64,000 nt of DNA from Chryseosolibacter histidinae. GTDB taxonomy: Bacteria > Bacteroidota > Bacteroidia > Cytophagales > Cyclobacteriaceae. Position 1 is the stretch's first letter. Each line of letters begins with the position of its first letter. The stretch covers positions 1-64,000 of the forward strand of contig NZ_JAHESF010000011.1 in NCBI RefSeq assembly GCF_018598225.1. The letters are read 5' to 3'. Both the position numbers and the translations under genes were made by a program. Shown here piece after piece: positions 23,120 through 63,780 of the stretch. A model generated the notes under the pieces. It was not told the DNA's origin, did no database searches, and saw nothing but the letters and a program-made list of their open reading frames with translations.

Positions 23120-23182
23120 GGAGTAAGGAGTAAGGAGTAAAAAGCAAGGAGCCAGAAGTCAGGAGCCAGGAGTCAGGAGGGG
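23120..23182. repeat. Nine-unit AG-rich heptad array
   Basis: Nine contiguous 7-base units of the form GGAGTAA, AAAGCAA, GGAGCCA, GAAGTCA, GGAGTCA. It begins 8 bases after the TPR gene stop. Units on the complementary strand recur at 23260-23347, so the two arrays form an inverted pair. Confidence 0.8.
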
Positions 23183-23259
23183 GAAGGCTTCGAACGGAGT
23201 TTGCGTGATCACTACTTCGGAAGCCCCATACTAGATTTACACACATAGTTCATTCGAAG

Positions 23260-23347
23260 GGCTTCTGGCTCCTGACTTCTAGCAAGCACACCACATTCAT
23301 TCGAAGGACTCCCTCTTTTGGCTTCTGACTTCTGGCTTCTGACTTCT
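23260..23347. repeat. TC-rich heptad arrays, inverted to those at 23120
   Basis: Three units (GGCTTCT, GGCTCCT, GACTTCT) at 23260-23280 and four (GGCTTCT, GACTTCT, twice) at 23320-23347. They are separated by a segment containing CATTCGAAGG-like words that also occur near 23251. They are reverse complements of the AG-rich units upstream. Confidence 0.8.
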
Positions 23348-23404
23348 GGCGAACACACCTACTCACTATTTGGAGAATTACGCTATTTTAGCGTGTCTGC
23401 CTCT

Positions 23405-23746
23405 ATGCTTAGAATCTTCAGATTAGGTGTATACTGCTTCGTTCTGGCCTCCTGCGTCTATCACGACCTTTCGCCTGACAGTCCACCAGTTGAGCCTGTT
23501 TGTGATCCGGCAACGACCAGCTGGCAAAACGATATTCTTCCCATCATGACAAACGCCTGCGCTACCAGTGGATGCCACGATGGGATTACACGCCGCGATT
23601 GGCGCAACTACAATGAAGTGAAACAATATGCGGCCTCCATCAAAAAGAAAACCCAGGACCGAAGCATGCCGTTCGACGGGCCATTGCCTCAACATGAGAT
23701 CGATCTCATTGCCTGCTGGGTGGATGGGGGGGCTTTGAATAATTAG
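23405..23746 (+). CDS. Small lipoprotein with C-x4-CH cytochrome-like motif
   Basis: 113 residues from ATG 23405. The N-terminus reads MLRIFRLGVYCFVLASC, with lipobox LASC and lipidated Cys 17. A longer start upstream lies inside the heptad repeats and would bury the signal. The body resembles short Bacteroidota cytochrome-like lipoproteins: WQNDILPIMTNACATSGCHDG, then MPFDGPLPQHEIDLIACWVDGGA. The heme-like site is C-A-T-S-G-C-H, two residues wider than CxxCH. Whether heme is attached is uncertain. Probably an extracytoplasmic redox or copper/heme-binding lipoprotein. Confidence 0.75.
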   Translation: MLRIFRLGVYCFVLASCVYHDLSPDSPPVEPVCDPATTSWQNDILPIMTNACATSGCHDGITRRDWRNYNEVKQYAASIKKKTQDRSMPFDGPLPQHEIDLIACWVDGGALNN

Positions 23747-23760
23747 TAGACTTTTGACTA

Positions 23761-23795
23761 GGAGCCAGAAGTAAGGAGCCAGGAGTAAGGAGTCC
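23761..23795. repeat. Five-unit AG-rich heptad array
   Basis: GGAGCCA, GAAGTAA, GGAGCCA, GGAGTAA, GGAGTCC in register, starting 14 bases after the cytochrome-like lipoprotein stop. Same family as 23120-23182. Confidence 0.8.
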
Positions 23796-23854
23796 AAACT
23801 TTATGATGATCTGCGCCTCATCGGGACTGCGATCTTAATATAGTAATGCATCAC

Positions 23855-23882
23855 CGTACCTCGTACTTCGTATCTCGTACCT
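23855..23882. repeat. Four-unit CGTACCT heptad array
   Basis: CGTACCT, CGTACTT, CGTATCT, CGTACCT in register, within the gap between two convergent genes. Same unit as the perfect array at 38101-38156. Confidence 0.8.
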
Positions 23883-23893
23883 TGACAAATCGT

Positions 23894-23911
23894 TCCCGAT
23901 AGCTATCGGGA
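23894..23911. terminator. Perfect 18-base palindrome downstream of dnaB
   Basis: TCCCGATAGCTATCGGGA, a perfect palindrome, ends 6 bases past the dnaB stop. A degenerate relative (CCCGATAGTCACCGGG) occurs near 57833. It lies between convergent genes and may act as a bidirectional terminator or a repeated palindromic element; it has no T-run. Confidence 0.5.
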
Positions 23912-23917
23912 TCGTGC

Positions 23918-25441
23918 CTAGAACGGTGTTTCGTCATCATTCCGCGGTGGCATCGGCGGTGCGTCATCTCCCGGGAAGCTGTTAAGCCTGCTTTCACGGG
24001 TGATCATGCCAGAGAATGGATTATCGAATGAGCTGGGTTCATCCAGGTCGCCGAACTTGGTGAACTTGCCTATGAATTTCAGTTTGGCTGTTCCGGTAGA
24101 ACCGTTCCTGTGTTTGGCGATGATCACTTCGCCCACCCCCTGCGTTGGTAAGCCTTCTTCGTCAACGGTGATCTTGTAGTATTCAGGACGATAGAGGAAC
24201 ATTACGATGTCGGCATCCTGTTCGATGGAACCGGATTCACGCAAGTCGGCGAGCTGCGGGCGTTTATCTCCTCCACGGGTTTCAACGCTACGACTGAGCT
24301 GTGACAGCGCCAGCACCGGTACGTTAAGCTCCTTGGCGATGCCTTTCAACGCACGGGAGATGGAAGCGATCTCCTGTTCGCGGTTACCACCCTGGTCGCC
24401 ACGCATCAGCTGGAGGTAATCGATCACCACCAGTTGGATGCCGTGCTCCGCCTTCAACCTGCGGCACTTGGCACGCAGCTCGAGCACGGAAAGCGCGGGG
24501 GTATCATCTATGAAGATCGGGGCTGAAGACAGGCGGCTTGTTTTATGCACAAGCTGCGCCCACTCATGGTCAGCCAGCTGACCTTTTTTAAGCTTCTCAC
24601 CTTCCAGCTCTGCTTCTGCGGAGATCATCCTGTTCACCAGCTGAATCGAGGCCATCTCCAACGAGAAGATCGCTACGGGGATCTTGAAATCGACCGCGGC
24701 ATTTCTGAGCGAAGAGACCACGAACGCGGTTTTACCCATACCAGGCCTTGCTGCAATGATCACAAGGTCAGACCGTTGCCAGCCGGAGGTCATCCTGTCC
24801 AGCGCTGTGAAACCACTGGGCACACCGGTCAACCCGTCTTTATGATCCTTCAAAAGCTGAAGCTCGTTGATAGCCTGCGCCATGAGGTTGCGCATGTTAT
24901 CATAGTTCTTGCGCAGGTTGGAGTCGGAGATCTCAAAGACCGACTGCTCCGTTTTATCGAGCAGCTCGAACACGTCTGTGGTGTCTTCGTAAGCATCGCT
25001 CTGGATCTGGGAGGCCACTTCGATCAGCGTACGCTTGATGGCCATCTCCATAATAACACGGGCGTGGTATTCGATGTTGGCCGCGGAGCTTACTTTGGCG
25101 GTGAGCTCTGCAATGTAATAGGCCCCTCCTACCAGCTCGATCTTTCCGTTCTTGCGCAGCTGATTGACCACTGTGCGCATGTCCACAGGCTCAGTGGCCT
25201 TGAACAGATCGATGATGGCCGTGTAAATTTCTTTGTGCCGGTCGTCATAAAAGTGATCGGGCTTGAGAAACTCGACCACGGCATTCAGCGCGTTCTTCTC
25301 GAGCATGAGCGCACCGAGCACCACTTCTTCCAGATCAAGCGCCTGAGGTGGCAACTTTCCCAAACCCTCCGAGATTTCTCTCGGAATCAGTTTGTTAGAC
25401 TTGTTGCTGAACCTCAGTGACGTTGATCGGCCTTGCTCCAT
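23918..25441 (-). CDS. dnaB: Replicative DNA helicase DnaB
   Basis: 507 residues. The N-terminal primase-binding domain starts PPQALDLEEVVLGALMLEK. The RecA-like core carries Walker A AARPGMGKTAF (about 230-240), Walker B region LVVIDYLQLM, SQLSRSVETR, and the motif RPQLADLRESGSIEQDADIVMFLYRPEYY. It unwinds DNA ahead of the replication fork as a hexamer. The C-terminal tail is acidic and proline-rich (GDDAPPMPPRNDDE). It is transcribed away from the Mpl-like ligase gene and convergent with the small lipoprotein. Confidence 0.98.
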   Translation of the reverse strand: MEQGRSTSLRFSNKSNKLIPREISEGLGKLPPQALDLEEVVLGALMLEKNALNAVVEFLKPDHFYDDRHKEIYTAIIDLFKATEPVDMRTVVNQLRKNGKIELVGGAYYIAELTAKVSSAANIEYHARVIMEMAIKRTLIEVASQIQSDAYEDTTDVFELLDKTEQSVFEISDSNLRKNYDNMRNLMAQAINELQLLKDHKDGLTGVPSGFTALDRMTSGWQRSDLVIIAARPGMGKTAFVVSSLRNAAVDFKIPVAIFSLEMASIQLVNRMISAEAELEGEKLKKGQLADHEWAQLVHKTSRLSSAPIFIDDTPALSVLELRAKCRRLKAEHGIQLVVIDYLQLMRGDQGGNREQEIASISRALKGIAKELNVPVLALSQLSRSVETRGGDKRPQLADLRESGSIEQDADIVMFLYRPEYYKITVDEEGLPTQGVGEVIIAKHRNGSTGTAKLKFIGKFTKFGDLDEPSSFDNPFSGMITRESRLNSFPGDDAPPMPPRNDDETPF

Positions 25442-25802
25442 ACAGTGGTTGTTGTACGTGTTTTATTTTATCAGGGCGACAAACGTACGGACAACAAGCT
25501 TCATAATACACACAACTTGTTAACAAAAGATTCACAAAAGGATGTTAACAAATAACATTCACCGCTGTGACAATTTGTGACAATCCAAATCTTTGCATCG
25601 TCATATCCCCAAAAACAGTGAGCGAAAACGCAAAGGATCAGGCCGGTCATGCACCCCAGCATACCCGCCGGTGAATTCGTTAATGTGCTGACCATGAGCT
25701 GCCAGCCCGAAGCCGCCATGAAAAAATACGCCCGGGCCCGCACCACCAGCTAGTGACTATTGAGTTTTTTTCATTTACTTTAAGCTCGAATTTTTACTGT
25801 CC
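25442..25802. promoter_or_regulatory. Divergent gap between dnaB and the Mpl-like ligase gene
   Basis: 361 bases between two divergent starts. The half near dnaB is AT-rich, with TGTTAACA-like words and a direct repeat (GTGACAATTTGTGACAAT around 25567-25584). It should hold the dnaB promoter. The other half carries a short possible ORF at 25650-25754, and an AT-rich stretch (25757-25800) just before the ligase ATG that could serve as its promoter. Confidence 0.4.
25650..25754 (+). CDS. Possible 34-residue ORF
   Basis: ATG to TAG, 34 codons. The product begins MHPSIPAGEFVNVLTMSCQP and ends in a basic tail. GC-rich coding-like composition contrasts with the AT-rich flanks. There is no recognised family, signal or membrane segment. 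It may be a relic or chance; a GTG frame starting at 25618 also crosses this place. Confidence 0.2.
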
Positions 25803-27170
25803 ATGCAGAAAAAGAAAATTCACTTTATAGCTATTGGTGGAAGTGTGATGCATAACCTGGCGATCGCCCTGAAGCAGGCGGGCCATGAGGTTAGCGGGTC
25901 TGACGATGAGATATTTGAGCCTTCACGCGCTGCATTGGCCAAGCACGGATTATTACCCGCGAAAGATGGCTGGCAACCGGAGAAGCTGGATGCTTCAACC
26001 GACATGGTCATTTTGGGCATGCATGCGGCAAAGGATAATCCCGAGCTTCTGAAAGCACAGCAGCTGGGTTTGAACATCCTCTCCTTTCCTGAGTACATTT
26101 TCGAGCACGCCAAAGATAAACAGCGGATCGTGATCGCGGGCAGCCACGGCAAAACCACCATCACGGCCATCATCATTCATGTGCTCAATTATTTTAACCG
26201 GAAGTTCGACTACGTGATCGGCGCCCGTGTAAGGGGCATCGAAAACACGGTAAGGCTCACCGACGCCCCCATGATCGTGATCGAAGGTGATGAATACCTC
26301 GCTTCAGCGCTCGACCCCACACCGAAATTCCTGGAATACCAGCACCATATCGGATTGATCAGCGGCATCGCGTGGGACCACGCCAACGTTTTTCCTTCCG
26401 AAGAAGAATATGTGCGCCAGTTCGACCTGTTTGCCGACCAGACCCCGAAAGGTGGCATCCTCATTTACTGCGAGCAGGATTCCATGGCCCTCATGATCGG
26501 CAAAAAAGAACGCGCAGACGTGACCGAGATCACTTACAAGAGTCATGCGCACACCTCCGATAACAACGGCCAGTTCTTCCTGACCGATGGAAAAGACCGT
26601 TTCCCCATAAAAATATTCGGCAGCCACAACTACCAGAATATCAGCGGGGCCAAGGAAGTGCTGAAACGTGTAGGCATCACCAACGAACAGTTCTTCGAAG
26701 CCATCACAAGCTTCCAGGGCGCAGCGGGCCGGCTTGAAGTGGTCAAAGAAAACACGCTTGCAACGGTCTACAAAGATTTTGCCCATGCACCTTCTAAAGT
26801 AAAGGCCACCGTGAAAGCTGTCAAAGAGATCCATCCTTCACGCGAGCTTCTGGCATGCGTGGAGCTTCATACGTTCAGCAGCCTGAATAAAAAATTCCTG
26901 CCCCAGTACAAGGACAGTCTGAAGAACGCCCAGGTGCCGGTGGTGTACTACAACCCCGAGAAGGTAAAAGCGAAAAAGCTCGAACCACTCGCTGAGTCAG
27001 ACATCAAATCGGCCTTTGCCAACCCGAACATCAGGGTTTTTGATAATACCGAAAAGCTGGAGAATTTTCTGATGGAACAATCATGGAAGAATAAGAACCT
27101 GCTCATGATGAGCTCCGGAAACTTCGGCGGCATAGACATCGGCAAGCTTTCTGAAAAAATACTTTCCTGA
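25803..27170 (+). CDS. mpl: Mpl-like Mur ligase (UDP-MurNAc : tripeptide ligase)
   Basis: 455 residues, the right length for Mpl. The N-terminal Rossmann part begins MQKKKIHFIAIGGSVMHNLA. The ATP site is GSHGKTT (113-119). Further marks are VIEGDEYLASALDPTPKF, GIAWDHANVFPS, GSHNYQNISGAKEVLK and VYKDFAHAPSKVKAT. Mpl attaches the recycled L-Ala-gamma-D-Glu-mesoDAP tripeptide to UDP-MurNAc in peptidoglycan recycling, in the cytoplasm. The ligase family is certain; the assignment to Mpl rather than MurC rests on length and the SGSD/HAPSK pattern. Confidence 0.88.
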   Translation: MQKKKIHFIAIGGSVMHNLAIALKQAGHEVSGSDDEIFEPSRAALAKHGLLPAKDGWQPEKLDASTDMVILGMHAAKDNPELLKAQQLGLNILSFPEYIFEHAKDKQRIVIAGSHGKTTITAIIIHVLNYFNRKFDYVIGARVRGIENTVRLTDAPMIVIEGDEYLASALDPTPKFLEYQHHIGLISGIAWDHANVFPSEEEYVRQFDLFADQTPKGGILIYCEQDSMALMIGKKERADVTEITYKSHAHTSDNNGQFFLTDGKDRFPIKIFGSHNYQNISGAKEVLKRVGITNEQFFEAITSFQGAAGRLEVVKENTLATVYKDFAHAPSKVKATVKAVKEIHPSRELLACVELHTFSSLNKKFLPQYKDSLKNAQVPVVYYNPEKVKAKKLEPLAESDIKSAFANPNIRVFDNTEKLENFLMEQSWKNKNLLMMSSGNFGGIDIGKLSEKILS

Positions 27171-27259
27171 GCACCGGGCCAGTTGAACGTAGACTCACAC
27201 AATGACACATTAAACCTGTTGGCTTCATAAAATAACGGCATCATCGCTTTGACGAAGGA

Positions 27260-28063
27260 ATGAAACTGAATTTACGCAACCCTATTTGCTTTTTTGATCT
27301 TGAGACAACGGGCGTGAACATCACACATGACCGTATCATCGAAATTGCCGTGATCAAGGTGATGCCCAACGGAGAGGTTCATCGCAAAACCAACCTGTTG
27401 AACCCGGGCATTCCCATTCCGCCGGAGAGCTCCGTATTTCACGGCATTTACGATGAGGATGTGAAAGACAAGCCCACCTTTAAAGAAGTGGCGAAAGAAT
27501 ATGCGAAGTTCATTGAAGGCGCCGACCTCTCAGGTTTCAGCATCCTGAAAATGGATGTGCCCATGCTGGTAGAGGAGTTCCTGCGCGCCGGAGTTGATTT
27601 CGACTACCAGCGCAAGAAGATCATCGACGCCCAAAAGATCTTTCACCTGATGGAGAAGCGAACGCTCGCTGCCGCCTATCGTTTTTACATGAACAAAGAG
27701 CTGCAGGAGTCACATACTGCCGAGGCGGATGCAGAAGCTTCCATGGAGGTATTGCTCGCCCAGGTTGAAAAGTACGATGGACAGGACGTGACCGATATCT
27801 CCGGGAAAAAGATCGGCGAGATCAAAAACGACATGGAAGTGCTGAGCAAGCTCACCGCCGCAGACATGGTGGACCTCGCCGGCCGCATGATCAAAAATGA
27901 AAAAGGAGAAGAGATCTTCAACTTCGGAAAGCACAAAAGCAAAAAAGTTACCGCCGTGCTGAAAGAAGAACCCGCCTACTACGACTGGATGATGAACGGC
28001 GATTTCCCGCAAGACACCAAACGAAAGCTCACCGAGATCAAGTTGAGAGGATTTAAGAAATAG
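27260..28063 (+). CDS. DnaQ-like 3'-5' exonuclease with ExoX-like C-terminal domain
   Basis: 267 residues. Exo I FFDLETTG lies at 11-18 (catalytic D13, E15), Exo II FSILKMDVPMLVEEF around 95, and Exo III HTAEADAEASMEV around 153, so the DEDD set is complete and of the DEDDh type. The C-terminal 65 residues (EEIFNFGKHKSKKVTAVLKEEPAYYDWMM) resemble the small domain found at the end of exonuclease X-like proteins. Likely a stand-alone proofreading or repair exonuclease, not the replicase epsilon subunit itself. A near-consensus -7 element (TCGCTTTG, 27244-27251) lies 8 bases before the ATG. Confidence 0.88.
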   Translation: MKLNLRNPICFFDLETTGVNITHDRIIEIAVIKVMPNGEVHRKTNLLNPGIPIPPESSVFHGIYDEDVKDKPTFKEVAKEYAKFIEGADLSGFSILKMDVPMLVEEFLRAGVDFDYQRKKIIDAQKIFHLMEKRTLAAAYRFYMNKELQESHTAEADAEASMEVLLAQVEKYDGQDVTDISGKKIGEIKNDMEVLSKLTAADMVDLAGRMIKNEKGEEIFNFGKHKSKKVTAVLKEEPAYYDWMMNGDFPQDTKRKLTEIKLRGFKK

Positions 28064-28067
28064 TCCT

Positions 28068-28233
28068 CAGTCGACGGTCCACGGTTCACAGTAGTGTGGT
28101 ATGACATTGGAGAATCGTACCTCGTAAAATCGTACCTCGTACCTCCACGAAGTAGGCGGTAGGCAATGAAAAGTAGGCAAATTAAAGACACAGCAACATA
28201 CGGCTGTGGACTGTCGACCATGGACTGTGGACT
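28068..28233. repeat. Composite heptad tract between convergent genes
   Basis: Four kinds of 7-base unit succeed one another: CAGTCGA/CGGTCCA/CGGTTCA at 28068-28088, CGTACCT at 28116-28144, GTAGGCG/GTAGGCA at 28152-28179, and GTGGACT/GTCGACC/ATGGACT at 28206-28233. The first and last sets are reverse complements of each other in type, so they again form an inverted pair. Confidence 0.75.
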
Positions 28234-28245
28234 CTGCGCGCAGGA

Positions 28246-28881: not shown

Positions 28882-28893
28882 TCATTAAAGAAG

Positions 28894-28995
28894 TTGACAA
28901 TTGACAAGATGGCAATTGACAACGGACCGAGCAAATATCTCGAGCCCTTCCCAATTCTGGCAGCCCTTGTCAACTGCCCCATTGTCAACTGTCAA
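28894..28995. repeat. Inverted pair of TTGACAA heptads (potential 29-bp hairpin)
   Basis: Arm 1 (28894-28922) and arm 2 (28967-28995) are 29 bases each and match at 24 of 29 positions as reverse complements, with a 44-base loop. The units are TTGACAA and its complement TTGTCAA. Arm 2 ends at the base before the M48 stop codon, and arm 1 lies 12 bases upstream of the DUF1684 start. Confidence 0.8.
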
Positions 28996-29793
28996 CTATT
29001 TCTTATAGTACTGCATCGCTTCAGGAATGGCATCATTCAGGTCTTTGATGCGGGTGCTGTGTGAAGGGTGGGTCGACAACCATTCCGGGGGCGCGCCTCC
29101 GCCACTGTCAGACGACATCCTTTCCCAGAACTTGGGTGCTTCGTGGGGATCGTAGCCAGCCATGGCCATAAAGATCAAACCGATCTTATCGGCTTCGGAT
29201 TCGTGCTGACGTGAGAACTTGAGCATACCTACCTGCGCTCCAACACCCACCGCCTGGAACAGCAGTTGTTTGGTCAATGTGGGATTCTGGCCCAAGGCCG
29301 CCCCAAAAGTGCCCAACAGGCCATTGGCCACCATGCCCTGGCTCATGCGCTCACGGCCATGGTTCGCAATCGCGTGCGCTACTTCGTGGCCCATTACCAC
29401 GGCTACTCCCGCCTCATCTTTACAAATGGGCATAATACCCGTGTAAAAAGCCACTTTACCACCGGGCATACACCAGGCGTTGACGGTTTTAGGGTCGTCT
29501 ATCAGGTTAAATTCCCACTGGAAGCCGGCGAGTTGGGAAGAGAGGTTCTTTTCGGCCATGTACCTTTCAACGGCCTTCTGGATCTTGACACCAACCTCCT
29601 TTACCATGGCAGTCTGCCGGGCGTCGGACGAGAGCTTGGCGGTTTTAACAATTGAATCATATTGGTGATTGACAACAGGAATGATCTCCTCGTTTGAAAC
29701 CAGGTTGAGCTGCTGGCGGCCGGTAACCGCTACCGTGGCGCAGGCATACAGAATCAGACCGAGAAAAGAAAAAATTACCGCGTATCGTATCAT
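28996..29793 (-). CDS. M48-family metallopeptidase, lipoprotein
   Basis: 265 residues. Lipobox LYAC puts the lipidated Cys at 18. Zinc site HEVAH is at 136-140, with the ESEADKIG third-ligand motif at about 198-205. VTGRQQLNLVS near the start and NAWCMPGGKVAFYTGI are typical of the LoiP/YcaL/BepA group. Such enzymes degrade misfolded outer-membrane proteins in the periplasm. It is divergent from the FAH-family gene, and the two share an inverted promoter pair. Confidence 0.92.
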   Translation of the reverse strand: MIRYAVIFSFLGLILYACATVAVTGRQQLNLVSNEEIIPVVNHQYDSIVKTAKLSSDARQTAMVKEVGVKIQKAVERYMAEKNLSSQLAGFQWEFNLIDDPKTVNAWCMPGGKVAFYTGIMPICKDEAGVAVVMGHEVAHAIANHGRERMSQGMVANGLLGTFGAALGQNPTLTKQLLFQAVGVGAQVGMLKFSRQHESEADKIGLIFMAMAGYDPHEAPKFWERMSSDSGGGAPPEWLSTHPSHSTRIKDLNDAIPEAMQYYKK

Positions 29794-29816
29794 AGTACTA
29801 TTTTTAAGTTAAAGTG

Positions 29817-29824
29817 CAAATCTA
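29817..29824 (-). promoter_or_regulatory. Candidate -7 element for the M48 peptidase gene
   Basis: TAGATTTG on the minus strand, an exact match to the Bacteroidota -7 consensus TAnnTTTG, 23 bases before the ATG at 29793. No good -33 TTG is seen. It forms an inverted pair with the element at 29842. Confidence 0.45.
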
Positions 29825-29841
29825 TACAGATATTGTTTCAC

Positions 29842-29849: not shown

Positions 29850-29882
29850 TGCCAGAATTATTTACCAAAATAAACCTATTCG

Positions 29883-34160: not shown

Positions 34161-35363
34161 ATGAAAAAGATAATTCCATTTGTACTGATCATTTTCGTTA
34201 TGGCCTGCGAGTCCGCTCATGTCCAGCCAGACAATACGCCGAATTTACGGGCGATGTCTGCGGCAGAAGTGCAGATAACCCGAGGCGTCAACGACTTTAC
34301 GTTCGATCTCTTCAAGCGTATAGACGAGCCTGCAAAAAATTCTTTCATGTCGCCGCTGAGCGTGAGCATGGCACTGGGCATGGTTATGAACGGCACGTCG
34401 GATGAAACCCGGCAAAGCATTCTCAATACGATAGACTATTCGGAATTTACTGCCGCTGAAGTAAACCAGGCATACAAAGACCTTACAGAACTGCTGCTTT
34501 CTATGGATCGGACAGTAACCATGGACGTTGCCAATTCGGTATGGCACAATCGTAACTACGCCGTAAACCGGGATTTCGTATCCATCGTACGGCAACAGTA
34601 CGATGCCAAAGTTGAAGGACTTAATTTTTCCGCGGATGACGCGAAGAATACGATCAACAATTGGGTGGCAAACAAAACCCGTGAAAAGATCACCAAGGTT
34701 ATCGAGAGAATCGCCCCTGAAGATGTGATGTTCCTGATCAACGCTATTTATTTCAAGGGAAGCTGGGCGCAGCAGTTCGATAAAACCCGAACCAGCGTGG
34801 CACCTTTCAAGACCGTTGACGGTACATCAGTTACAGCAGACATGATGCATGCGAAAGACGCTGTTGTGCAGCTTTATCAAAATGACGAGGTGCAGGTTGT
34901 AGACGTGCCTTACGGGAATGGACAGTTCAGCTTCACCATTGTGGCACCCTTTTCAAATCTTAATGAAATGACAGGTGTTCTCGATGCAGCACAACTTACA
35001 GGCTGGATCTCCCATGCCGACAGCACAAAGATAACGCTCAGGATGCCACGGTTTAAAATGCGCTGGCAAAAGGACCTCAAAGAAACGCTTATGAGTATGG
35101 GAATGAAGATAAACGGGTTCCCGAATCTGTTTGAGTCCATCTCCGACAACCTGGAGATCTCAAAGGTTGATCACCAGGCCTATCTCGATGTGAACGAAGA
35201 AGGCACGGAAGCAGCCGCCGTAACTACAGTAGGCATTCAGTTGACTTCTGCGCCAATAGAACGCGTGATCACCATCGACAGACCCTTCCTCTTCATGATC
35301 CGTGAAAAACACTCCGGCGTCATCCTGTTCATGGGAAAACTCGTGAACCCGTCAGACCTCTAA
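34161..35363 (+). CDS. Lipoprotein serpin (serine/cysteine protease inhibitor)
   Basis: 400 residues. The lipobox VMAC gives lipidated Cys 16, so it is displayed on the membrane. The full serpin fold is present: NSFMSPLSVSMALGMVMNGT, INNWVANKTREKITKVI, LINAIYFKGSWAQQFD, LRMPRFKM, DHQAYLDVNEEGTEAAAVT, and DRPFLFMIREKHSGVILFMGKLVNP. The reactive-loop hinge EEGTEAAAVTTVG has small residues at P12-P9, the mark of inhibitory serpins. Counting 17 residues from P17 places P1-P1' near Thr-Ser in IQLTSAP, so elastase-like or similar proteases are plausible targets. It may guard the cell surface against its own or foreign proteases. Confidence 0.95.
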   Translation: MKKIIPFVLIIFVMACESAHVQPDNTPNLRAMSAAEVQITRGVNDFTFDLFKRIDEPAKNSFMSPLSVSMALGMVMNGTSDETRQSILNTIDYSEFTAAEVNQAYKDLTELLLSMDRTVTMDVANSVWHNRNYAVNRDFVSIVRQQYDAKVEGLNFSADDAKNTINNWVANKTREKITKVIERIAPEDVMFLINAIYFKGSWAQQFDKTRTSVAPFKTVDGTSVTADMMHAKDAVVQLYQNDEVQVVDVPYGNGQFSFTIVAPFSNLNEMTGVLDAAQLTGWISHADSTKITLRMPRFKMRWQKDLKETLMSMGMKINGFPNLFESISDNLEISKVDHQAYLDVNEEGTEAAAVTTVGIQLTSAPIERVITIDRPFLFMIREKHSGVILFMGKLVNPSDL

Positions 35364-35378: not shown

Positions 35379-35425
35379 CAATGTGCAGGTGACTGTAACA
35401 CTTACTGCATTTCACCTGCACATTG
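35379..35425. terminator. 14-bp hairpin between convergent serpin and serine hydrolase genes
   Basis: Perfect arms CAATGTGCAGGTGA (35379-35392) and TCACCTGCACATTG (35412-35425) with a 19-base loop, 15 bases after the serpin stop. There is no T-run on either side. Probably an end-of-transcript structure for both genes. Confidence 0.6.
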
Positions 35426-35436: not shown

Positions 35437-35481
35437 TGCTCCTCCTGACTCCTTGCTCCTGGCTTCTTACTCCTGTTTCCT
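35437..35481. repeat. TC-rich heptad array overlapping a stop codon
   Basis: TGCTCCT, then GACTCCT, TGCTCCT, GGCTTCT, TACTCCT, GTTTCCT in register from 35447. The last two units code for the C-terminal residues of the serine hydrolase, and its TAA lies across the join of GGCTTCT and TACTCCT. Reverse complement of the AG-rich family at 23120. Confidence 0.75.
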
Positions 35482-36987
35482 CACCTTCAGCTCTTCGAAG
35501 AAGAAATCATCATTCGGCACATCGAAGGTCAGGCCAGTGATCTTATTGTTGTTATCAAGATCAAACCGCACCGTTCCAAATGAGAACCACGCCAGCACTT
35601 CAGGATTTTCCCATTTGAGCTCCCACACGTCATAGTGCCAGTGCTCCAGCGAGGCCGCAAGATCGGGCGTATGTTCGAATGACACTTTCAACTTTCCCGC
35701 CTCTTGCTTCACCGTGATCTTGCCGTAGCTGTCGCTGATATAAGTGCCGGCATAAGCATCAAGCGGTAACGAAGGTTTCGTGCTCATTACCCGCGCTTTT
35801 TTCCGGTCTTCAACCCGGGTATCCTTATTTTTGGCTGCGTTGGCCAAGGCTTCCGCCGACCAGTCTTTTTCGGGCGCTTTCAGGAATGCATCGATGGTGT
35901 AGTTCACCAGCGGCGCGAACACGGACCTCATGCCATTGGTGAGCACAACAACACCAAGGTTCTCATCGGGGATCAACGCTACGGCTGACAGCATGCCCGA
36001 GTATCCACCGGTATGCCCTACCCGCAGCCTTCCGCGGTAATCGTTGATGGTCCATCCCAGCCCGTATGCCCTCATGTGCACCGACTTGTCTTTACCGGTA
36101 TGGTCAACGGTGAAGGTATTGTGCGGAGTCCACACCATATTGCGTGCTTGTTTCGAAAGCAACGTATCGCCATTCCAGATACCATGGTTGAGGTTAAACA
36201 TCATCCACTGCGCCATGTCTCTCACGCTGGAGATGACACCGCCGGTAGCCGCCACGTGCTCCCAATCTTCCCACGAAATAGGCTTGTGCACATTGTCGAA
36301 CAAAGCGTGGGGCGTGGCATAGTTTCCTTTTTTAGCGAGGTCTTTTGTTGTGGTAACAGACCTGCTCATGCCCAGCGGCGTGAAGAAACGTTCGCGGATG
36401 GTTTCTCCCCATGACTGGCCTGTGATCTTTCTCATCACCTCTCCTGCCGTGATGTACATTACGTTGGAATAACCGTATCCGGAACGGAAATCATATGCCC
36501 TCGGAAGATACTTCACACGTTTAATGATCTCTTCAGCATTGAGCGTTGAACGATACCAGATGAGGTCACCACTGAATGTACCGAGCCCCACGCGATGGCA
36601 TAACAGGTCGCGGATGGTGGCCTCATGCGAGACCCAGGGATCGTACAATTCAAAATACGGAAGGTGCTTTTTCACCTTGTCGTTCCAGCCCAGCTTGCCT
36701 TCGTCCACAAGCTGCGCGATGGCCGCGGAGGTAAAGGCCTTCGAGTTAGAGGCAATGGCAAACAGCGTATGTTCGTCAGGCGCTTCAGGCTTGCCCAGTT
36801 CCTTAACTCCATAACCTTTGCTGAAAACTACTTTGCCATCTTTTACAATGGCGATGCTCATGCCGGGTATGCCCCAGTCTTTCAGGGCCTTGCTGTAATA
36901 GGCATCCAGTTTTTTCAGGTCTGCCTGAGCGTGCAGGCCGGAATAAGAAACGTGAACGATCAGGAGCAGGAAGACAAGCTTTTTCAT
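35467..36987 (-). CDS. Serine hydrolase of the class C beta-lactamase family, secreted
   Basis: 506 residues from ATG 36987, which opens the signal peptide MKKLVFLLLIVHVSYSGLHA; a 19-codon longer frame lacks signal character. The penicillin-binding-like triad is complete: SNSK with nucleophile Ser 80 and Lys 83, YSN in GYGYSNVMY, and HTG in VGHTGGYSG. The C-terminal 110 residues form a lipocalin-like DUF3471-type domain (YAGTYISDSYGKITVK). Substrates may be peptides, esters or D-amino-acid peptides; a role in antibiotic resistance is not implied. The last codons lie within a heptad repeat array. Confidence 0.9.
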   Translation of the reverse strand: MKKLVFLLLIVHVSYSGLHAQADLKKLDAYYSKALKDWGIPGMSIAIVKDGKVVFSKGYGVKELGKPEAPDEHTLFAIASNSKAFTSAAIAQLVDEGKLGWNDKVKKHLPYFELYDPWVSHEATIRDLLCHRVGLGTFSGDLIWYRSTLNAEEIIKRVKYLPRAYDFRSGYGYSNVMYITAGEVMRKITGQSWGETIRERFFTPLGMSRSVTTTKDLAKKGNYATPHALFDNVHKPISWEDWEHVAATGGVISSVRDMAQWMMFNLNHGIWNGDTLLSKQARNMVWTPHNTFTVDHTGKDKSVHMRAYGLGWTINDYRGRLRVGHTGGYSGMLSAVALIPDENLGVVVLTNGMRSVFAPLVNYTIDAFLKAPEKDWSAEALANAAKNKDTRVEDRKKARVMSTKPSLPLDAYAGTYISDSYGKITVKQEAGKLKVSFEHTPDLAASLEHWHYDVWELKWENPEVLAWFSFGTVRFDLDNNNKITGLTFDVPNDDFFFEELKVRKQE

Positions 36988-37157
36988 GATGAGGAGGTGG
37001 TTTATTATTCCAAAGTAGCAGTTTTTTGTGCATTGCCACAGCAACGGGCTCAGATTAGCCCCCGGGATGGGGATTTTGGGAAATACACGGCATTCGCCGC
37101 ATAAAACTTTGCGTGGTTTCTAAATTTCCTCCATCTTCGCGCCAAAATTTGCCATTC

Positions 37158-38006: not shown

Positions 38007-38349
38007 AATTAGACATGAGTTTTAGATATGAGATTTGAGACAATGCAGTCTCGGGAAATTCTCATGTCCTTGTTTTGCTCCTGCTTATCAGCCCCCATCT
38101 CGTACCTCGTACCTCGTACCTCGTACCTCGTACCTCGTACCTCGTACCTCGTACCTCTCTTCCCTGTAGAAAATATCCACACTTTTCCCCAAATTTATTA
38201 CATCCATTTTCTGACAGCAGCTCGACGCCTGTTTTAGGCTGTTAGTTGTTTTTAAGCAACGATTCGACGCTCAGCACCCGCTTTCCACAGTTACGCCACA
38301 ATGTTTTGCCGTATAAGTGATCATAAATATTACACAACCAAAACAAACA
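38007..38349 (+). promoter_or_regulatory. Gap between transketolase N-half and DUF4382 gene
   Basis: 343 bases. The first third contains weak 7-base words (GAGTTTT, TAGATAT, GAGATTT) and the perfect CGTACCT array (38101-38156). The remainder is AT-rich, with small stems such as GCCT-(5)-AGGC near 38228, and ends ACACAACCAAAACAAACA before the ATG. The promoter of the lipoprotein gene should be here, but no exact TAnnTTTG was found. Confidence 0.35.
38101..38156. repeat. Eight perfect tandem CGTACCT units
   Basis: CGTACCT repeated eight times without a single change (56 bases), 95 bases past the transketolase N-subunit stop. It is the purest member of the heptad class and, being perfect, probably the youngest or most length-variable. 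Confidence 0.95.
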
Positions 38350-52592: not shown

Positions 52593-53033
52593 ATGGAACT
52601 GACGTACAGACTCATTGATGACACGGCGAGCTTCGAAGCTTTCCGTTCGCTGCTGAAAGCCTCCAGCCTTCCAGCCGATGACCTCAACTACAAAAGGGAC
52701 CTTCTCGTGGGCTATTACGAAGGGGACTCGCTTGTAGGCACCGGTGCGCTCGAGATCCATGGCAACTATGCCTTGCTGCGATCATTGTCAGTGAAGCTCG
52801 GCATCCGCGGCAAGTCCGTGGGTACCACCATCACAGAGTACCTGCTCGATGAGGCCCGGAAGAAGAAACTGAAAGCGATCTACCTGCTCACCGAAACTGC
52901 CCGTGGCTTTTTTCTGAAAAAAGGATTCACAGAAGTGCAGCGCGATGAAGTCCCCGCCGACGTCAAGGCTTCCTCTGAGTTCTCACAGGTGTGCCCTGTA
53001 ACAGCGGTGGTGATGGTATTGCCAATTAATTGA
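52593..53033 (+). CDS. ArsN2-like GNAT N-acetyltransferase
   Basis: 146 residues. GNAT features: KRDLLVGYYEGDSLVGTGALEIHGNYALLRSLSVKLGIRGKSVGTTITEYLLDEARKKKLKAIYLLTETARGFFLKKGFTEVQRDEVPADVK has the acetyl-CoA loop at GIRGKSVG and the FFLKKGF closing motif. The LRSLSV and LLTETA segments are typical of ArsN2, annotated as an arsenic-resistance acetyltransferase. No arsR, arsB, arsC or arsM gene is nearby, so the arsenic link is only by family. Substrate unproven. Confidence 0.8.
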   Translation: MELTYRLIDDTASFEAFRSLLKASSLPADDLNYKRDLLVGYYEGDSLVGTGALEIHGNYALLRSLSVKLGIRGKSVGTTITEYLLDEARKKKLKAIYLLTETARGFFLKKGFTEVQRDEVPADVKASSEFSQVCPVTAVVMVLPIN

Positions 53034-53034
53034 A

Positions 53035-53173
53035 GAGTCCAAAGACCACAGTCGACAGTCCACAGCCATCTGGTGCGCCCTCTCAAATTGAAGGTACGAG
53101 GTACGAATTACGAAGTACGATTTCGGTACTCCACACTAACCTGCTGTGGTCCGTCGACAGTGGACCGTGGACC
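53035..53173. repeat. Composite heptad tract before the SerB-SerA gene
   Basis: GAGTCCA/AAGACCA/CAGTCGA/CAGTCCA (53035-53062), GGTACGA/GGTACGA/ATTACGA/AGTACGA (53093-53120), and GTGGTCC/GTCGACA/GTGGACC/GTGGACC (53146-53173). The first and last sets are inverted relative to each other. It starts one base after the acetyltransferase stop. Confidence 0.8.
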
Positions 53174-53246
53174 ATCCGTCAACTATCAATCGTTAGCCCT
53201 TCAATTAATATTTCCCTCTCCCGTGGACTGTTGACACGGGGCTTAT

Positions 53247-56992: not shown

Positions 56993-56996
56993 CCCC

Positions 56997-58030: not shown

Positions 58031-59113
58031 ATGGTACACCACGTTAATTTCACCCCCGGACCTTCTCAACTATATTTTACGGTAGCCGATCACGCACGGC
58101 AGGCCTTCAAGGAAAACATCCCGTCACTGTCGCACCGGAGCAAATTGTTCGAACAGATCTCCAGCGAAACCACCGGAGGATTGCGCCAGTTGCTTGGCAT
58201 ACCGGCAAGCCACCATATTTTTTTCACCGGCTCCGCCACGGAAGTATGGGAAAGGATCATACAAAATCTCGTGGCAGAAAGTTCATTTCACCTGGTGAAT
58301 GGTTCCTTCTCTAAAAAGTTCTACGAGACCGCCGTGCAGCTGAACAAAAAGCCACAGAAGCTCGAAGTGAAAGAAGGCCTCGGATTCGATCCGCAGATCT
58401 CCATACCGCAAGGCACCGAGCTGATCGCTGTAACACACAACGAGACCAGCACAGGCGTTTCACTGCCGCTGGAAACCATCTACGCGCTGAAAGAAAATAA
58501 TCCGCACGCGCTCGTGGCCGTAGATGCTGTATCATCACTGCCCTACCCTCAATTCGATTTTACAAAACTCGACTCTGTCTTCTTCTCCGTTCAGAAAGGA
58601 TTTGGTTTGCCTGCAGGGTTGGGCGTATGGATCGTGAATGAAAAATGCATCGCGAAAGCGGATCAGCTTTTATCGAAAGGTTTCTCCATCGGCTCATACC
58701 ACAACATTCCCAGCCTGAAAGTTCACGCCGTCAAAAACCAGACGCCCGAAACACCAAATGTGCTGGGCATCTACCTGCTGAACAAAGTAGTGCAGGATTT
58801 TTTAAGACGTGGCATCGACACCATCCGGAAAGAGACAGACTACAAAGCTGCGATCTTGTATCAGGCGCTGGAACAACATCCGCTGTTGTCTGCGTTTGTG
58901 CAGGAAAAGAAATTTCAGTCCAGAACGGTGATCGTGGCCGACTGCCAGAGTCACACTGAAAAAGCTACCGCGTTCCTGCAGCAGAAAGGTTTGTATCCGG
59001 GAGACGGTTATGGTCCTTCCAAAAAAACACAGCTGCGCTTTGCTAACTTCCCGGCGCACTCCAAAGAGCAGTATGAATTGCTTGTGGATTCCCTTTTAGA
59101 ATTTAGAATTTAG
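58031..59113 (+). CDS. Class-V aminotransferase, SerC-like
   Basis: 360 residues, typical for SerC and alanine-glyoxylate aminotransferases. Start: VNFTPGPSQLYF; then FFTGSATEVWERI, VTHNETSTGVSLP, VAVDAVSSLPYPQFDF, and the PLP-lysine region FFSVQKGFGLPAGLGVWIV. The end reads TQLRFANFPAHSKEQYELLV. Residues fit a fold-type I class-V enzyme. Phosphoserine aminotransferase is the most useful guess because the SerB-SerA fusion is encoded 3 kb upstream, but the TPGPS and N-E-T-S-T-G motifs are shared by several substrate classes. Confidence 0.82.
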   Translation: MVHHVNFTPGPSQLYFTVADHARQAFKENIPSLSHRSKLFEQISSETTGGLRQLLGIPASHHIFFTGSATEVWERIIQNLVAESSFHLVNGSFSKKFYETAVQLNKKPQKLEVKEGLGFDPQISIPQGTELIAVTHNETSTGVSLPLETIYALKENNPHALVAVDAVSSLPYPQFDFTKLDSVFFSVQKGFGLPAGLGVWIVNEKCIAKADQLLSKGFSIGSYHNIPSLKVHAVKNQTPETPNVLGIYLLNKVVQDFLRRGIDTIRKETDYKAAILYQALEQHPLLSAFVQEKKFQSRTVIVADCQSHTEKATAFLQQKGLYPGDGYGPSKKTQLRFANFPAHSKEQYELLVDSLLEFRI

Positions 59114-59205
59114 AATATAGATTCTTTCTCCAGAAAAATTTGATGCATGTTTAAACCTTAGACAGGCCGAAATGTCTATATTCAAACACCAAGCCTCACC
59201 GCTAT

Positions 59206-59745: not shown

Positions 59746-59780
59746 ACCTTTGTATCTCAGGGAAGTCAATAGAAAAGACC

Positions 59781-60206: not shown

Positions 60207-60208
60207 CC

Positions 60209-60703: not shown

Positions 60704-60720
60704 ATATACGTCAACAGCGA

Positions 60721-61668
60721 ATGGACAGGATCCGATGTTGGCTTTTAGCGCTCACCATGGCAGCATCCCAGGCTTATGCCCAGGATGCTGATTCGTTATT
60801 GACAAACGCTTCGTCTTTCTCTGCCGCAGATTCACTCTCCATCTTCAGCCTCATTGACAGCCTGCTCAGTCTCGAAGACGCATCAGGCTCGCAACTGGCG
60901 CTTCGCATGGCCTACAACAGCAACGTACTGTCTGCGGGCAGAACGCTGGGCATCGAAAATTTCGGGCTCGCGCCAGGCGTTTCATATTATCACCGTTCAG
61001 GCTTTTACGGCGATCTTTCGGGCTACTGGAGCAAGGATTTTGAGCCTGCGTATTACCTTACCGTGGCATCGCTCGGCTATATGCGCGACCTCTCGAAACA
61101 TTTTTCGGTGATGGCAGGATATGACCGATATTTTTACAACATCGCAACGAACGAGAACAGTTACATCCCTTACAAAAACACGTTATCCGTCAGCCCTATC
61201 GTGGAGCTCAAACCGTTGTCGCTGAGCGCGAACTATTCGTTCTATTTTGGTGATCAGCGTGCGCACAGGATCATGCCCTGCCTGACGCTCACCTTCCAGA
61301 AAAGGAAATTCCGGAGCATCGACCGCATCGCCTTCATGCCTTCGGTATTTGCGCTGATGGGTGACGAGGTGATCACAAAAATGGAATTTGTGCCGCCGAA
61401 AACACTACGCGAGGCAGCCGATAATATCAGGAAGTACGGAACCCGTTTCAGTGTTGCGCAGGTACGCAACCATGTATTCGGTATGATGAATTATGCCTTC
61501 AGCACGCCTTTAAGTATCTCCCACAAACAATGGATGCTGACCTTCACCTGGTCTTACAGCATTCCCAAAGCGCTGCCCGGAGAAACCCTTACCCTGTCTG
61601 AAAGCACTTACCTGTCTGGCAGCCTCACCTACATTATAGACCTCAGGCGGCATAAAAACCCTTTGTAA
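60721..61668 (+). CDS. Secreted outer-membrane beta-barrel-like protein
   Basis: 315 residues with signal peptide (ends MAASQAYAQ). After a Ser-rich section (ADSLLTNASSFSAADSLSIFSLIDSLLS) the rest shows regular amphipathic beta strands with aromatic ends: FGLAPGVSYYHRSGFYGDLSGYWSK, VASLGYMRDLSKHFSVMAGYDRYFYN, SLSANYSFYFGD, MLTFTWSYSIPKAL and YLSGSLTYIIDL. It probably forms a barrel of 12 or so strands. It lies 17 bases after the Spy-like gene and may be under the ECF sigma. Confidence 0.72.
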   Translation: MDRIRCWLLALTMAASQAYAQDADSLLTNASSFSAADSLSIFSLIDSLLSLEDASGSQLALRMAYNSNVLSAGRTLGIENFGLAPGVSYYHRSGFYGDLSGYWSKDFEPAYYLTVASLGYMRDLSKHFSVMAGYDRYFYNIATNENSYIPYKNTLSVSPIVELKPLSLSANYSFYFGDQRAHRIMPCLTLTFQKRKFRSIDRIAFMPSVFALMGDEVITKMEFVPPKTLREAADNIRKYGTRFSVAQVRNHVFGMMNYAFSTPLSISHKQWMLTFTWSYSIPKALPGETLTLSESTYLSGSLTYIIDLRRHKNPL

Positions 61669-61691
61669 AATAGTGGGGTTTGGATATTTTG
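61662..61691 (+). promoter_or_regulatory. Candidate promoter of the M1 aminopeptidase gene
   Basis: TTTG at 61662-61665, a 19-base spacer and TATTTTG at 61685-61691, close to the Bacteroidota TTTG-N19-TAnnTTTG layout with one base less in the -7 box. The ATG follows 26 bases later. Confidence 0.4.
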
Positions 61692-61717
61692 CAAACGTTA
61701 ACACCAAACCACCTATC

Positions 61718-63577
61718 ATGCTTAAGATCAGATTATTGTTCTGCCTCGCAACCGTTGTTCTCCAGCAGGCCGTTGCACAGGAATACCGCTGGCAACAAAG
61801 GGCTGAATATGTGATGGACATCCGCCTGGATGTGAATACACACCGTGTCAATGGCACGCAGAAGCTCACCTACTACAACAATTCAAAAGATACACTTGCC
61901 AAAGTATATTATCACCTCTACTTCAATGCATTCCAGCCCGGCAGCATGATGGATGTAAGGTCGAGGAACATCATGGATCCAGACCCGCGGGTCACCGACC
62001 GCATCTCGAAGCTAAGAGAAGATGAGATCGGCTACCAGCACATCCAGAGCCTGAAGCAGGATGGCAAAAATGTGAGCTACATCATCAACGGAACAGTGCT
62101 GGAGGTGACGTTGGCGAAAGCCCTTGTGCCCGGAGGAAAAACGGTGTTCGACATGACGTTCGAATCGCAGGTGCCCGTGCAGATCAGAAGGTCGGGACGG
62201 AATAACAAGGAAGGCATCTCCTACTCCATGACACAGTGGTATCCGAAGATGGCCGAATATGATTTTCAGGGATGGCATGCTTACCAATATGTGGCGCGTG
62301 AATTCCATGGCGTGTGGGGAGACTTTGACGTGAAGATCACCCTCGATCCCTCCTTCATGGTAGCGGGCACCGGCAAGCTTCAGAATGCCGACAAGATCGG
62401 ATATGGTTACGAAAAAGCAGGCACCACGGTAAAAAGACCGGAAGGAAACCTGACGTGGCACTTCATCGCTAAAAATGTTCACGACTTTGCATGGGCTGCA
62501 GATCCGGAATATGAGCACGAGAAACTCCAGGTACCTGGCGGACCCGAGCTGCATTACTTTTATCAGCCGGGCGCCAAGACCACTGAGGTATGGAAAAAAA
62601 TGATGGAGTACGGCGTGCGCCATTTCGAGTTCATGAATAAAACCTTCGGCCAGTATCCGTACGACACTTATTCGATCATACAGGGTGGAGACGGCGGCAT
62701 GGAGTACCCGATGTGCACGCTCATTACCGGAGAAAGAACTTTTGGCAGCCTCGTTGGCGTGATGGCCCACGAAGCCGCGCACAGCTGGTACCAGGGGGTG
62801 CTCGCCTCCAATGAATCGTTGTATCCGTGGGTGGACGAAGGCTTCACCGATTTCGCCGCAAACGAGTCGATGGCTTTCATGTTCAATGAGACCGATCCTC
62901 ACAAAGGAAGTTACGGCGGGTATTTCTCGCTCGTGAAAAGTGGTTTACAGGAGCCTGCCAGCCAGCACTCAGATCACTACAGCACCAACAGGGCTTATGG
63001 CACTGCGGCGTACAATATGGGTACCGTTTTTCTGCATCAGCTCAAGTACATCATTGGTGAGGAACAATTCTACCATGGCATGCGCCGGTATTACAACGCG
63101 TGGAAATTCAGACATCCCGAGCCGGAAGATTTCATCCGGATCATGGAAAAGGTTTCGGGCCTGCAACTGGCATGGTACCTGAACTACTGGATCAGTACCA
63201 CTAAACGTATCGACTACAACGTTAAAGCAGTAGTGGCTGCCGGTGACGAGACCATGGTAACACTGGAACGTGTGGGTGAGTTTCCCATGCCGGTAGACCT
63301 TCTGGTAACTTACAAGGACGGAAGCAAAGAGATGTATTATGTGCCCCTGAATGAAACCCTCGGCAACAAACCGGTGGAAGATAAGACCGTTCAGCGTTAC
63401 GATCTCCAGGCATGGCCCTGGGTAAATCCCACGTACACGCTGAGGATCAAACGCAGGGCCGCCGACGTTGCATCGGTTGAGATCGACCCCAGCCTTCGCC
63501 TGGCCGATATTGACCGGAAGAATAACAAGATCGACATGGCCCAGGCAATGAAGCCATACCAGGATCCGACTAAATAG
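61718..63577 (+). CDS. M1-family metallopeptidase, secreted
   Basis: 619 residues from ATG 61718, which opens the signal peptide (MLKIRLLFCLATVVLQQAVAQ); the longer frame from 61673 would overlap the promoter. Zinc site HEAAH at 351-355 and third ligand Glu 374 (WVDEGF), the HExxH-x18-E spacing of the family. The exopeptidase motif appears as GGMEYP instead of GAMEN. N-terminal beta domain: YVMDIRLDVNTHRVNGTQKLTYYNNS. The late section NYWISTTKRIDYNVKAV is typical of this Bacteroidota branch. It is an exported aminopeptidase for peptide nutrition. Confidence 0.94.
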   Translation: MLKIRLLFCLATVVLQQAVAQEYRWQQRAEYVMDIRLDVNTHRVNGTQKLTYYNNSKDTLAKVYYHLYFNAFQPGSMMDVRSRNIMDPDPRVTDRISKLREDEIGYQHIQSLKQDGKNVSYIINGTVLEVTLAKALVPGGKTVFDMTFESQVPVQIRRSGRNNKEGISYSMTQWYPKMAEYDFQGWHAYQYVAREFHGVWGDFDVKITLDPSFMVAGTGKLQNADKIGYGYEKAGTTVKRPEGNLTWHFIAKNVHDFAWAADPEYEHEKLQVPGGPELHYFYQPGAKTTEVWKKMMEYGVRHFEFMNKTFGQYPYDTYSIIQGGDGGMEYPMCTLITGERTFGSLVGVMAHEAAHSWYQGVLASNESLYPWVDEGFTDFAANESMAFMFNETDPHKGSYGGYFSLVKSGLQEPASQHSDHYSTNRAYGTAAYNMGTVFLHQLKYIIGEEQFYHGMRRYYNAWKFRHPEPEDFIRIMEKVSGLQLAWYLNYWISTTKRIDYNVKAVVAAGDETMVTLERVGEFPMPVDLLVTYKDGSKEMYYVPLNETLGNKPVEDKTVQRYDLQAWPWVNPTYTLRIKRRAADVASVEIDPSLRLADIDRKNNKIDMAQAMKPYQDPTK

Positions 63578-63578
63578 T

Positions 63579-63780
63579 CGAAAGTTTGAAGTTTAAAATG
63601 GTTTCCAGTTACCAGTTTCCGGGTAGCCAGTTGGGAGTGCACGGCCTTCATGAAAGCTTCAGCCCGAGGGAACATAGCTCAGAAGGCGATTTAACTCAAC
63701 GAAACCGGTAACTGGCAACCGGCAACCATACTGAGGCGTTTTTAATTTTAAACTTTTAACTTTAAACTTCGAACTTGAAA
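63579..63780. repeat. Inverted heptad arrays between M1 peptidase and ligA
   Basis: Left: TCGAAAG, TTTGAAG, TTTAAAA and TTTCCAG, TTACCAG (63579-63635). Right: CCGGTAA, CTGGCAA, CCGGCAA and TTTAAAC, TTTTAAC, TTTAAAC, TTCGAAC, TTGAAAC (63701-63780). The two sides are reverse complements in type and in nested order (AAAGTTT outside, CCAGTTACC inside), enclosing about 65 bases of unique sequence. The right array ends 8 bases before the ligA start. Confidence 0.8.

Follow-up and report, generated by a model that had tools for sequence, protein, structure and literature searches.

Inverted pairs of degenerate heptanucleotide arrays at gene ends of Chryseosolibacter histidinae resemble extragenic palindromes in an unusual, multi-family form

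The first 64,000 nucleotides of contig NZ_JAHESF010000011.1 of Chryseosolibacter histidinae (assembly GCF_018598225.1; Bacteroidota, Cytophagales), hereafter the window, carry arrays of degenerate 7-bp units in the gaps between genes, many of them next to stop codons. Most of these arrays are arms of hairpins, each arm consisting of about four to five heptamers of one family (Table 1). A first-pass annotation made from the letters alone had listed twelve array starts, counted there as "at least eleven", of which ten were recovered by Tandem Repeats Finder (TRF), by a scan for self-match at lag 7 or by direct reading (20147, which is weak and A-rich, 23120, 23761, 23855, 28068, 28894, 35437, 38101, 53035 and 63579). 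The array at 23260 is real, yet merely a short arm, CTTCTGGCTCCTGACTTCT, and 12461 was left uncounted because both the TRF rows at score 30 and the lag-7 scan at score 11 lacked it. The array described as perfect at 38101 does consist of 8.4 perfect copies of CTCGTAC by TRF. What had been overlooked were the inverted pairing of most arrays, the nesting of several elements and an array at 59095-59121.

Arrays were sought in 1.264 Mb of the 8.04-Mb genome (the window and seven contig parts) by a run score over intergenic DNA at each period, and in the window also by TRF. Genes were our own dicodon-scored open reading frames (ORFs), called without annotation and with starts set at the first possible position; the 19 of 212 period-7 arrays that lay at least half inside called genes were excluded from the counts. 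Intergenic self-match at lag 7 in the window was 0.323 against 0.257 in shuffled sequence (z 10.7), with harmonics at lag 14 (z 10.0) and lag 21 (z 4.0); lag 15 was weaker (z 3.0), and the same test gave no lag-7 signal in the window's coding sequences. The excess over shuffles also held in two further contigs of the genome, 200 kb each (z 19.9 and 11.9). The sample contains 193 intergenic period-7 arrays, which confirms a dispersed class beyond the window, and the period is as strict as had been claimed: periods 4, 5, 6, 8, 9, 10, 11, 12, 13 and 15 yielded only 0, 0, 0, 1, 5, 1, 2, 3, 2 and 5 arrays, and the 110 arrays at period 14 are a harmonic of period 7. Three successive CGTACCT units, with up to 3 mismatches, have 234 + 232 overlapping matches genome-wide, against 1 + 1 for the reversed pattern. 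As tandem 7-nt units in intergenic DNA, the 193 arrays agree in this trait with heptanucleotide short tandemly repeated repetitive (STRR) sequences or long simple sequence repeats (LSSRs).

The units fall into several families, as had been noted, and eight of these take in 184 of the 193 arrays: six main families (RGTCSAY, RGTTTAA, RGTTRCC, RGTAATC, RGTACGA and AGTCAGR, the last spelled AGGAGTC in our scripts) together with GAGATAT and TAGAATT; the other nine arrays fit none. The family patterns were composed after inspection of the sample's first part. In the RGTCSAY profile, positions 2, 4 and 6 are conserved at 0.96 or more in both arms, and positions 1, 5 and 7 are two-fold degenerate. A universal RGT core was tried as a common denominator; it fits seven families of this genome, fails on the units AAGCTTC and CCAAATA of the same-genus genome G002, and was dropped.

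The first pass had treated the array itself as the element, a view that did not survive the comparison of neighbours, since an array is mostly one arm of an inverted pair. Among neighbouring arrays no more than 250 bp apart, 85 pairs are inverted, 3 are direct and 33 are neither; randomly drawn array pairs from the first 464 kb proved inverted in 8% of cases and direct in 7%. Most pairs classed as neither in that part join arrays of two different families, frequently nested, as with the RGTACGA arrays inside the loops of the RGTCSAY pairs at 28062-28236 and 53036-53176. The inverted pairs comprise 21 of RGTCSAY, 15 each of RGTTTAA and RGTTRCC, 12 each of RGTAATC and RGTACGA, 6 of AGTCAGR, 2 of TAGAATT, 1 of RRTTGAC and 1 unclassified. 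Polarity is fixed, with the same family strand forming the 5' arm in 84 of 84 classified pairs; the lone family-less pair (C89:190525-190616) scored as reversed on one incidental word (1/85). The purine fraction of the 5' arm exceeds 0.5 in seven of nine families, the others being RGTCSAY (0.48) and RGTTRCC (0.43).

Family medians of arm length run from 4.4 to 5.4 units (range 2.4-10.4), the longest being runs through an entire hairpin. Loops are short in RGTACGA (8-36 nt), RGTTTAA (8-60 nt) and RGTAATC (mostly 10-25 nt, up to 115), and long in RGTTRCC (52-120 nt), RGTCSAY (23-169 nt) and AGTCAGR (67-147 nt). Arm ends keep a preferred phase in RGTTRCC, where 21 of 30 arms have their outer end at phase 0 and 29 of 30 have the inner end in one of two adjacent phases, and in RGTTTAA (inner end at phase 3 in 22 of 30), the preference being slight in RGTAATC and RGTACGA. 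Just inside the arms of several families, where loops are at least 35 nt long, lies a motif near TAGTGYGGTGT; its matrix scores above 8 at 34 of 102 arm ends and in 59 of 4000 control segments, having been fitted on those same ends. On contigs outside the motif discovery, 6 of 9 intergenic matches to GTGY[GA]GTGT immediately follow an arm on its 3' side, and the discovery contigs give the same proportion, 6 of 9. As RNA, eight sequences holding both arms fold better than shuffles (z -3.7 to -9.1), and two single-arm sequences gave z -3.6 and -0.65; the inverted units thus fold into larger hairpins, as those of repetitive extragenic palindromic (REP) sequences do. No Rfam covariance model matched the window at gathering scores.

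Placement relative to genes is equally consistent. Disregarding gaps below 40 bp, arrays occur in 29 of 66 gaps between convergent genes, in 69 of 260 between tandem genes and in 12 of 72 between divergent ones (864 kb). Pairs were placed in the full sample, with gaps above 800 bp left out of the distances: convergent gaps holding a pair have a median of only 7 bp left over (n=29), those without any array have a median length of 54 (n=67), and in tandem gaps the median distance is 3 nt from stop to arm and 66 nt from arm to the next start (n=44), with only 5 pairs in divergent gaps. Arms in convergent and tandem gaps usually start no more than 10 nt from a stop codon. The elements thus sit, as REPs do, beside the 3' ends of upstream and convergent ORFs. 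Of the 92 gene ends that lie 20 nt or less from the outer end of a pair, 36 have a TAG stop, against 207 of the 876 sample genes with a stop, as if some elements supplied the stop codon.

Table 1. Heptamer arms and arrays located in the window.
Feature	Position	Strand	Remarks
Left (5') arm, AGTCAGG family	23119..23179	+	starts 7 nt past stop of 22734-23111
Short right-type arm, AGTCAGG family, within loop	23260..23281	+	read directly
Right arm, AGTCAGG family	23315..23350	+	partner of 23119-23179
Single left-type arm, AGTCAGG family	23760..23793	+	
Single right-type arm, RGTACGA family (reads CGTACCT)	23855..23882	+	35 nt from dnaB stop (23918-25441, minus)
Left arm, RGTCSAY family	28062..28092	+	overlaps stop of 27260-28063; C. 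serpens orthologous gap 1 bp
Nested RGTACGA-family array in RGTCSAY loop	28115..28145	+	
Right arm, RGTCSAY family	28204..28236	+	partner of 28062..28092
Left arm, RRTTGAC family	28894..28922	+	folds with right arm, z -6.2
Right arm, RRTTGAC family	28968..28997	+	at stop of 28996-29793 (minus)
Single right-type arm, AGTCAGG family	35442..35481	+	overlaps 3' end of 35467-37044 (minus)
Perfect array, 8.4 copies of CTCGTAC	38099..38157	+	no partner arm seen
Left arm, RGTCSAY family	53036..53065	+	starts 2 nt past stop of 52593-53033
Nested RGTACGA array in RGTCSAY loop	53092..53120	+	
Right arm, RGTCSAY family	53146..53176	+	pairs with 53036..53065
TAGAATT-family array	59095..59121	+	spans stop of 58031-59113
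Outer left arm, RGTTTAA family	63580..63599	+	read directly
Inner left arm, RGTTRCC family	63601..63633	+	
Inner right arm, RGTTRCC family	63703..63727	+	
Outer right arm, RGTTTAA family	63739..63781	+	

The presence of these elements is lineage-specific. The closest named relative by DnaB, Chryseolinea serpens (88% identity, among the best 80 loci), of the family Fulvivirgaceae in the Cytophagales, has no intergenic period-7 array in 200 kb and no CGTACCT-pattern match in its genome, and a convergent gap of 182 bp that holds an element in the window measures 1 bp there. The loop of the element at 28064 was considered as an ancestral 3' untranslated region (UTR), a candidate rejected once its C. 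serpens match proved to be the neighbouring gene's end. In the same-genus genome G002, 200 kb contain 19 arrays with 9 inverted and 0 direct pairs, and the units there (ACGAATR, AAGCTTC, CCAAAWA, RGTTCCA) largely differ from those of C. histidinae; the unit therefore changes while the period stays, as the first pass had envisaged. The RGTTTAA type is common to another same-genus genome, G001, and occurs in G002 as short DNA matches. On these sequences, unit vocabularies turn over between lineages.

Farther afield, the CGTACCT pattern occurs in 8 of 58 other relatives with 1-14 matches each, in one of which (G038) the reversed control scored above the pattern, 23 against 8. Three exact successive AGYMAGR units occur in 24 of 295 other Bacteroidota genomes with 1-31 matches each, against 180 + 176 in C. 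histidinae, and the reversed control also scores in some Bacteroidota genomes. One of them, G297, has 117 + 64 matches to that reversed control and may therefore possess a large heptamer family of its own. The AGTCAGG unit was also found on 8 plasmid records, including those of Nostoc, Kovacikia, Pseudomonas silvicola and Paracoccus; among five plasmid stretches compared, inverted heptamer pairs occur in the two from cyanobacteria, and the three from proteobacteria show perfect tandem arrays only. Those three (L233:9975-10066, L234:9970-10063 and L236:9996-10069) consist of 10-13 perfect copies of AGTCAGG or AGCCAGG without partner arms. Across the wider genome set inverted pairs outnumber direct ones by 19 to 7, a smaller lead than in C. 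histidinae, and the 5' arm of those 19, which are not 19 independent families, is purine-rich in 17, poor in 1 and even in 1.

By a modest balance of probability, we take these elements to be dispersed palindromes of 3' UTRs with heptamer-built arms, similar to REPs and bacterial interspersed mosaic elements (BIMEs), that would be spread by copying and act as RNA hairpins. They lie mostly right after stop codons, seemingly between the stop and the native terminator, and would spread through the genome by some copying process, while exact direct and inverted repeats would be deleted, so that the units stay degenerate. The hairpins would act, if at all, at RNA 3' ends, where they might slow 3' exonucleases or affect ribosomes terminating just upstream; E. 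coli REPs located a few nucleotides after the stop have been reported to affect translation (PMC12306157). The placement shows that long hairpins a few nucleotides past the stop abound in the 3' UTRs of at least one species of Bacteroidota.

Several results weigh against this REP/BIME-like reading. In the stems of tandem elements, G-U and A-C oppositions number 46 and 44, and this lack of a G-U excess gives no sign of selection on RNA pairing. Target-site duplications of 4-8 nt, expected of miniature inverted-repeat and other DDE-transposon derivatives, showed no excess, and the outer boundaries are fuzzy. The 51 loops of at least 30 nt have just short matches in common, barring overlapping array calls at one locus and one local duplication of an RRTTGAC element, which argues against recent copying of whole elements, because young copies should share loops; likewise, nhmmer searches seeded by 16 loops shrank to 6 matches and left only the short motif near TAGTGYGGTGT, and shared loop homology was rejected. 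The tags of REPs are no general feature here: GTAG occurs at 11 of 170 outer ends (a fraction of 0.065, against 0.024 in the intergenic control) and CGTC at 0 of 170. Nor was a linkage found to REP-associated tyrosine transposases (RAYTs): the genome has four Y1_Tnp matches, and within the 3.2-kb stretch taken around each, an array pair lies near one of the four, itself a weak match. An origin from RAYTs and REPINs was thus rejected, as the search of the genome gave no consistent neighbour, and membership of a tagged REP family fails on both tags and RAYT association.

The case for ordinary replication slippage, with 7-nt steps favoured by the polymerase footprint (an idea that PMC4679880 and PMC4692102 credit to Mrazek 2007) and inverted pairs arising by hairpin template switching, lies in the strict period, in the one perfect 8-copy array and in the perfect long AGTCAGG-type arrays of other genomes and proteobacterial plasmids. 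Slippage should leave identical units side by side, yet identical neighbours within arms number 44 against 65.2 expected (standard deviation 6.5, p ~0.001; unit shuffling, six families). The deficit is clear in RGTACGA (7 against 14.6) and RGTAATC (3 against 7.4), non-significant in RGTCSAY (7 against 12.0), AGTCAGR (3 against 5.8) and RGTTRCC (8 against 11.1), and absent in RGTTTAA (16 against 14.2). Complementarity between the two arms of one element is lower than between arms of different elements in RGTAATC (p 0.002), RGTTTAA (p 0.007) and RGTACGA (p 0.002), and among the six families tested an element's own arms are more alike only in RGTCSAY, weakly (p 0.049). Slippage alone is therefore unfit to explain the arms, and template switching or gene conversion between an element's own arms was rejected, given that these are no more alike in five of six families; switching from either side should moreover yield both polarities, yet that of the classified pairs is fixed. 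The recurrence of a few families across contigs, eight of them holding nearly all arrays, also speaks against slippage, which we regard as unlikely and which the first pass had named, beside a dedicated replicating element, as a process that might maintain the arrays. Its wider interpretation of dispersed arrays with changing units and a common mechanism is partly supported. The statistics on arms and neighbouring units would instead fit the purging of exact direct and inverted repeats by deletion.

Bidirectional intrinsic terminators that substitute for the native ones would account for the enrichment of arrays in convergent gaps and for the strong RNA hairpins, but their identity with the elements was rejected, for there is no U-tract logic. 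Runs of T5 are depleted between the stop and the element end (3 of 100 against 12.6 expected), and T4 runs right after the element rise only mildly (21 of 100 against 12.7 in shuffles), so that a hairpin followed by a U-tract is not the rule. Native-looking T5 runs follow within 70 nt of the element in 17 of 43 tandem cases against 4.7 expected (native ends: 90 of 303 against 26.6). Because T5 runs are rare before and common after the element, the hairpin seems to sit between the stop and the native terminator without replacing it, and we consider the terminator explanation improbable. Binding sites for a protein or RNA that recognises heptads would be consistent with the fixed unit positions, of which two or three vary mostly within two-base classes, as in RGTCSAY, and with the common inner motif beside the arms of several families, yet about eight vocabularies here and largely other ones in G002 would require many recognisers; we regard this explanation as quite improbable.

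As a long shot, and the least probable of the explanations considered, the arms might be "written" by a trans-acting, template-directed activity with telomerase-like logic that would add degenerate 7-nt words to the 3' ends on either side of a break close to where genes end. Room for templated writing exists because the arms are independent and their polarity is fixed. If true, one template per family would give inverted pairs, a single polarity, independent arms and unrelated loops in one step, as well as a fixed period and species-specific vocabularies that shift with the template. Among long simple repeats, heptamers are the most frequent in many bacterial genomes (Mrazek 2007, as cited in PMC4679880). 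The persistence of period 7 across differing units, two genomes of one genus and about eight families makes the question of why heptamers directly testable, and any mechanism must reproduce arm independence, the avoidance of exact repeats and mostly purine-rich 5' arms.

Cyanobacterial heptanucleotide STRR sequences are described as tandem repeats, and degenerate heptanucleotide repeats also form the P6b stem of the cyanobacterial tRNA-Leu intron. The present arrays share tandem heptanucleotides with the STRR sequences, including the AGTCAGG unit of the Nostoc and Kovacikia plasmids; unlike the STRR sequences as described, they form inverted pairs, as do the heptamers of the two cyanobacterial plasmid stretches, a comparison confined to those stretches. 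As in P6b, heptamers build a stem, but the elements are dispersed, whereas P6b is a single locus inside an intron. PMC4692102, which also mentions heptanucleotide repeats of Calothrix and Nostoc, treats the closest known system, the GGGAATC arrays of Xanthomonas (Rehm et al. 2015). These are reported there as degenerate, intergenic, mostly of four units and often in convergent pairs (70 inverted ones in one of the two genomes studied and 75 in the other), nearer to the 5' neighbouring ORF, at 28 nt on average, and G-quadruplex formation was proposed for their G-rich unit. The C. histidinae elements likewise combine degenerate intergenic heptamers, about four units and inverted pairs near the upstream ORF end; they differ in having at least eight families, a Bacteroidota host, a distance of a few nucleotides from stops and a consensus without G-tracts. 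By inspection, the consensus of none of the six main families contains a GGG tract that would make a G-quadruplex-capable unit, the variant GGGACGA being minor (5 of 88 RGTACGA units).

REPs and BIMEs are reported as dispersed palindromes by the 3' ends of convergent and upstream ORFs, with inverted units, several types per genome and patchy presence (Di Nocera et al. 2013, PMC3733652). All four traits recur here, but the elements lack a general GTAG/CGTC tag, their arms are made of 7-bp units and their loop is not conserved; overall they resemble known extragenic palindromes, in an unusual version with several families. The statement of the first pass that nothing equivalent was known in this group does not hold as it stands: TAACTGA repeats are reported as patchy in Beggiatoaceae, Cyanobacteria and five Bacteroidetes, some of which have other heptamer repeats in the same intergenic regions (MacGregor 2015, PMC4679880). 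In the main genome of that study, TAACTGA forms direct repeats, mostly just upstream of start codons, unlike the inverted pairs after stop codons found here. Multi-family inverted heptamer pairs in Bacteroidota were not found in the mainly open-access literature, as judged by titles and abstract openings.

The window has further features besides these elements. Two non-heptamer words, GCTATCGGGA (part of CCCGATAGCTATCGGG) and GAAGGATCCC, each occur in 8 of 227 intergenic gaps, at 23890-23915 in the window and elsewhere, and probably represent another repeat family. A long separate hairpin at 35379-35425 (CAATGTGCAGGTGA ... TCACCTGCACATTG) lies in a convergent gap, next to a single heptamer arm. 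The stretch 34161-35363 encodes a serpin-family protein with about 28-34% identity to plasmid-borne serpins of other prokaryotes among the matches listed. ORF 53272-55164 matches phosphoserine phosphatase over residues 3-212 and phosphoglycerate dehydrogenase over residues 224-630, and is thus a SerB-SerA fusion.

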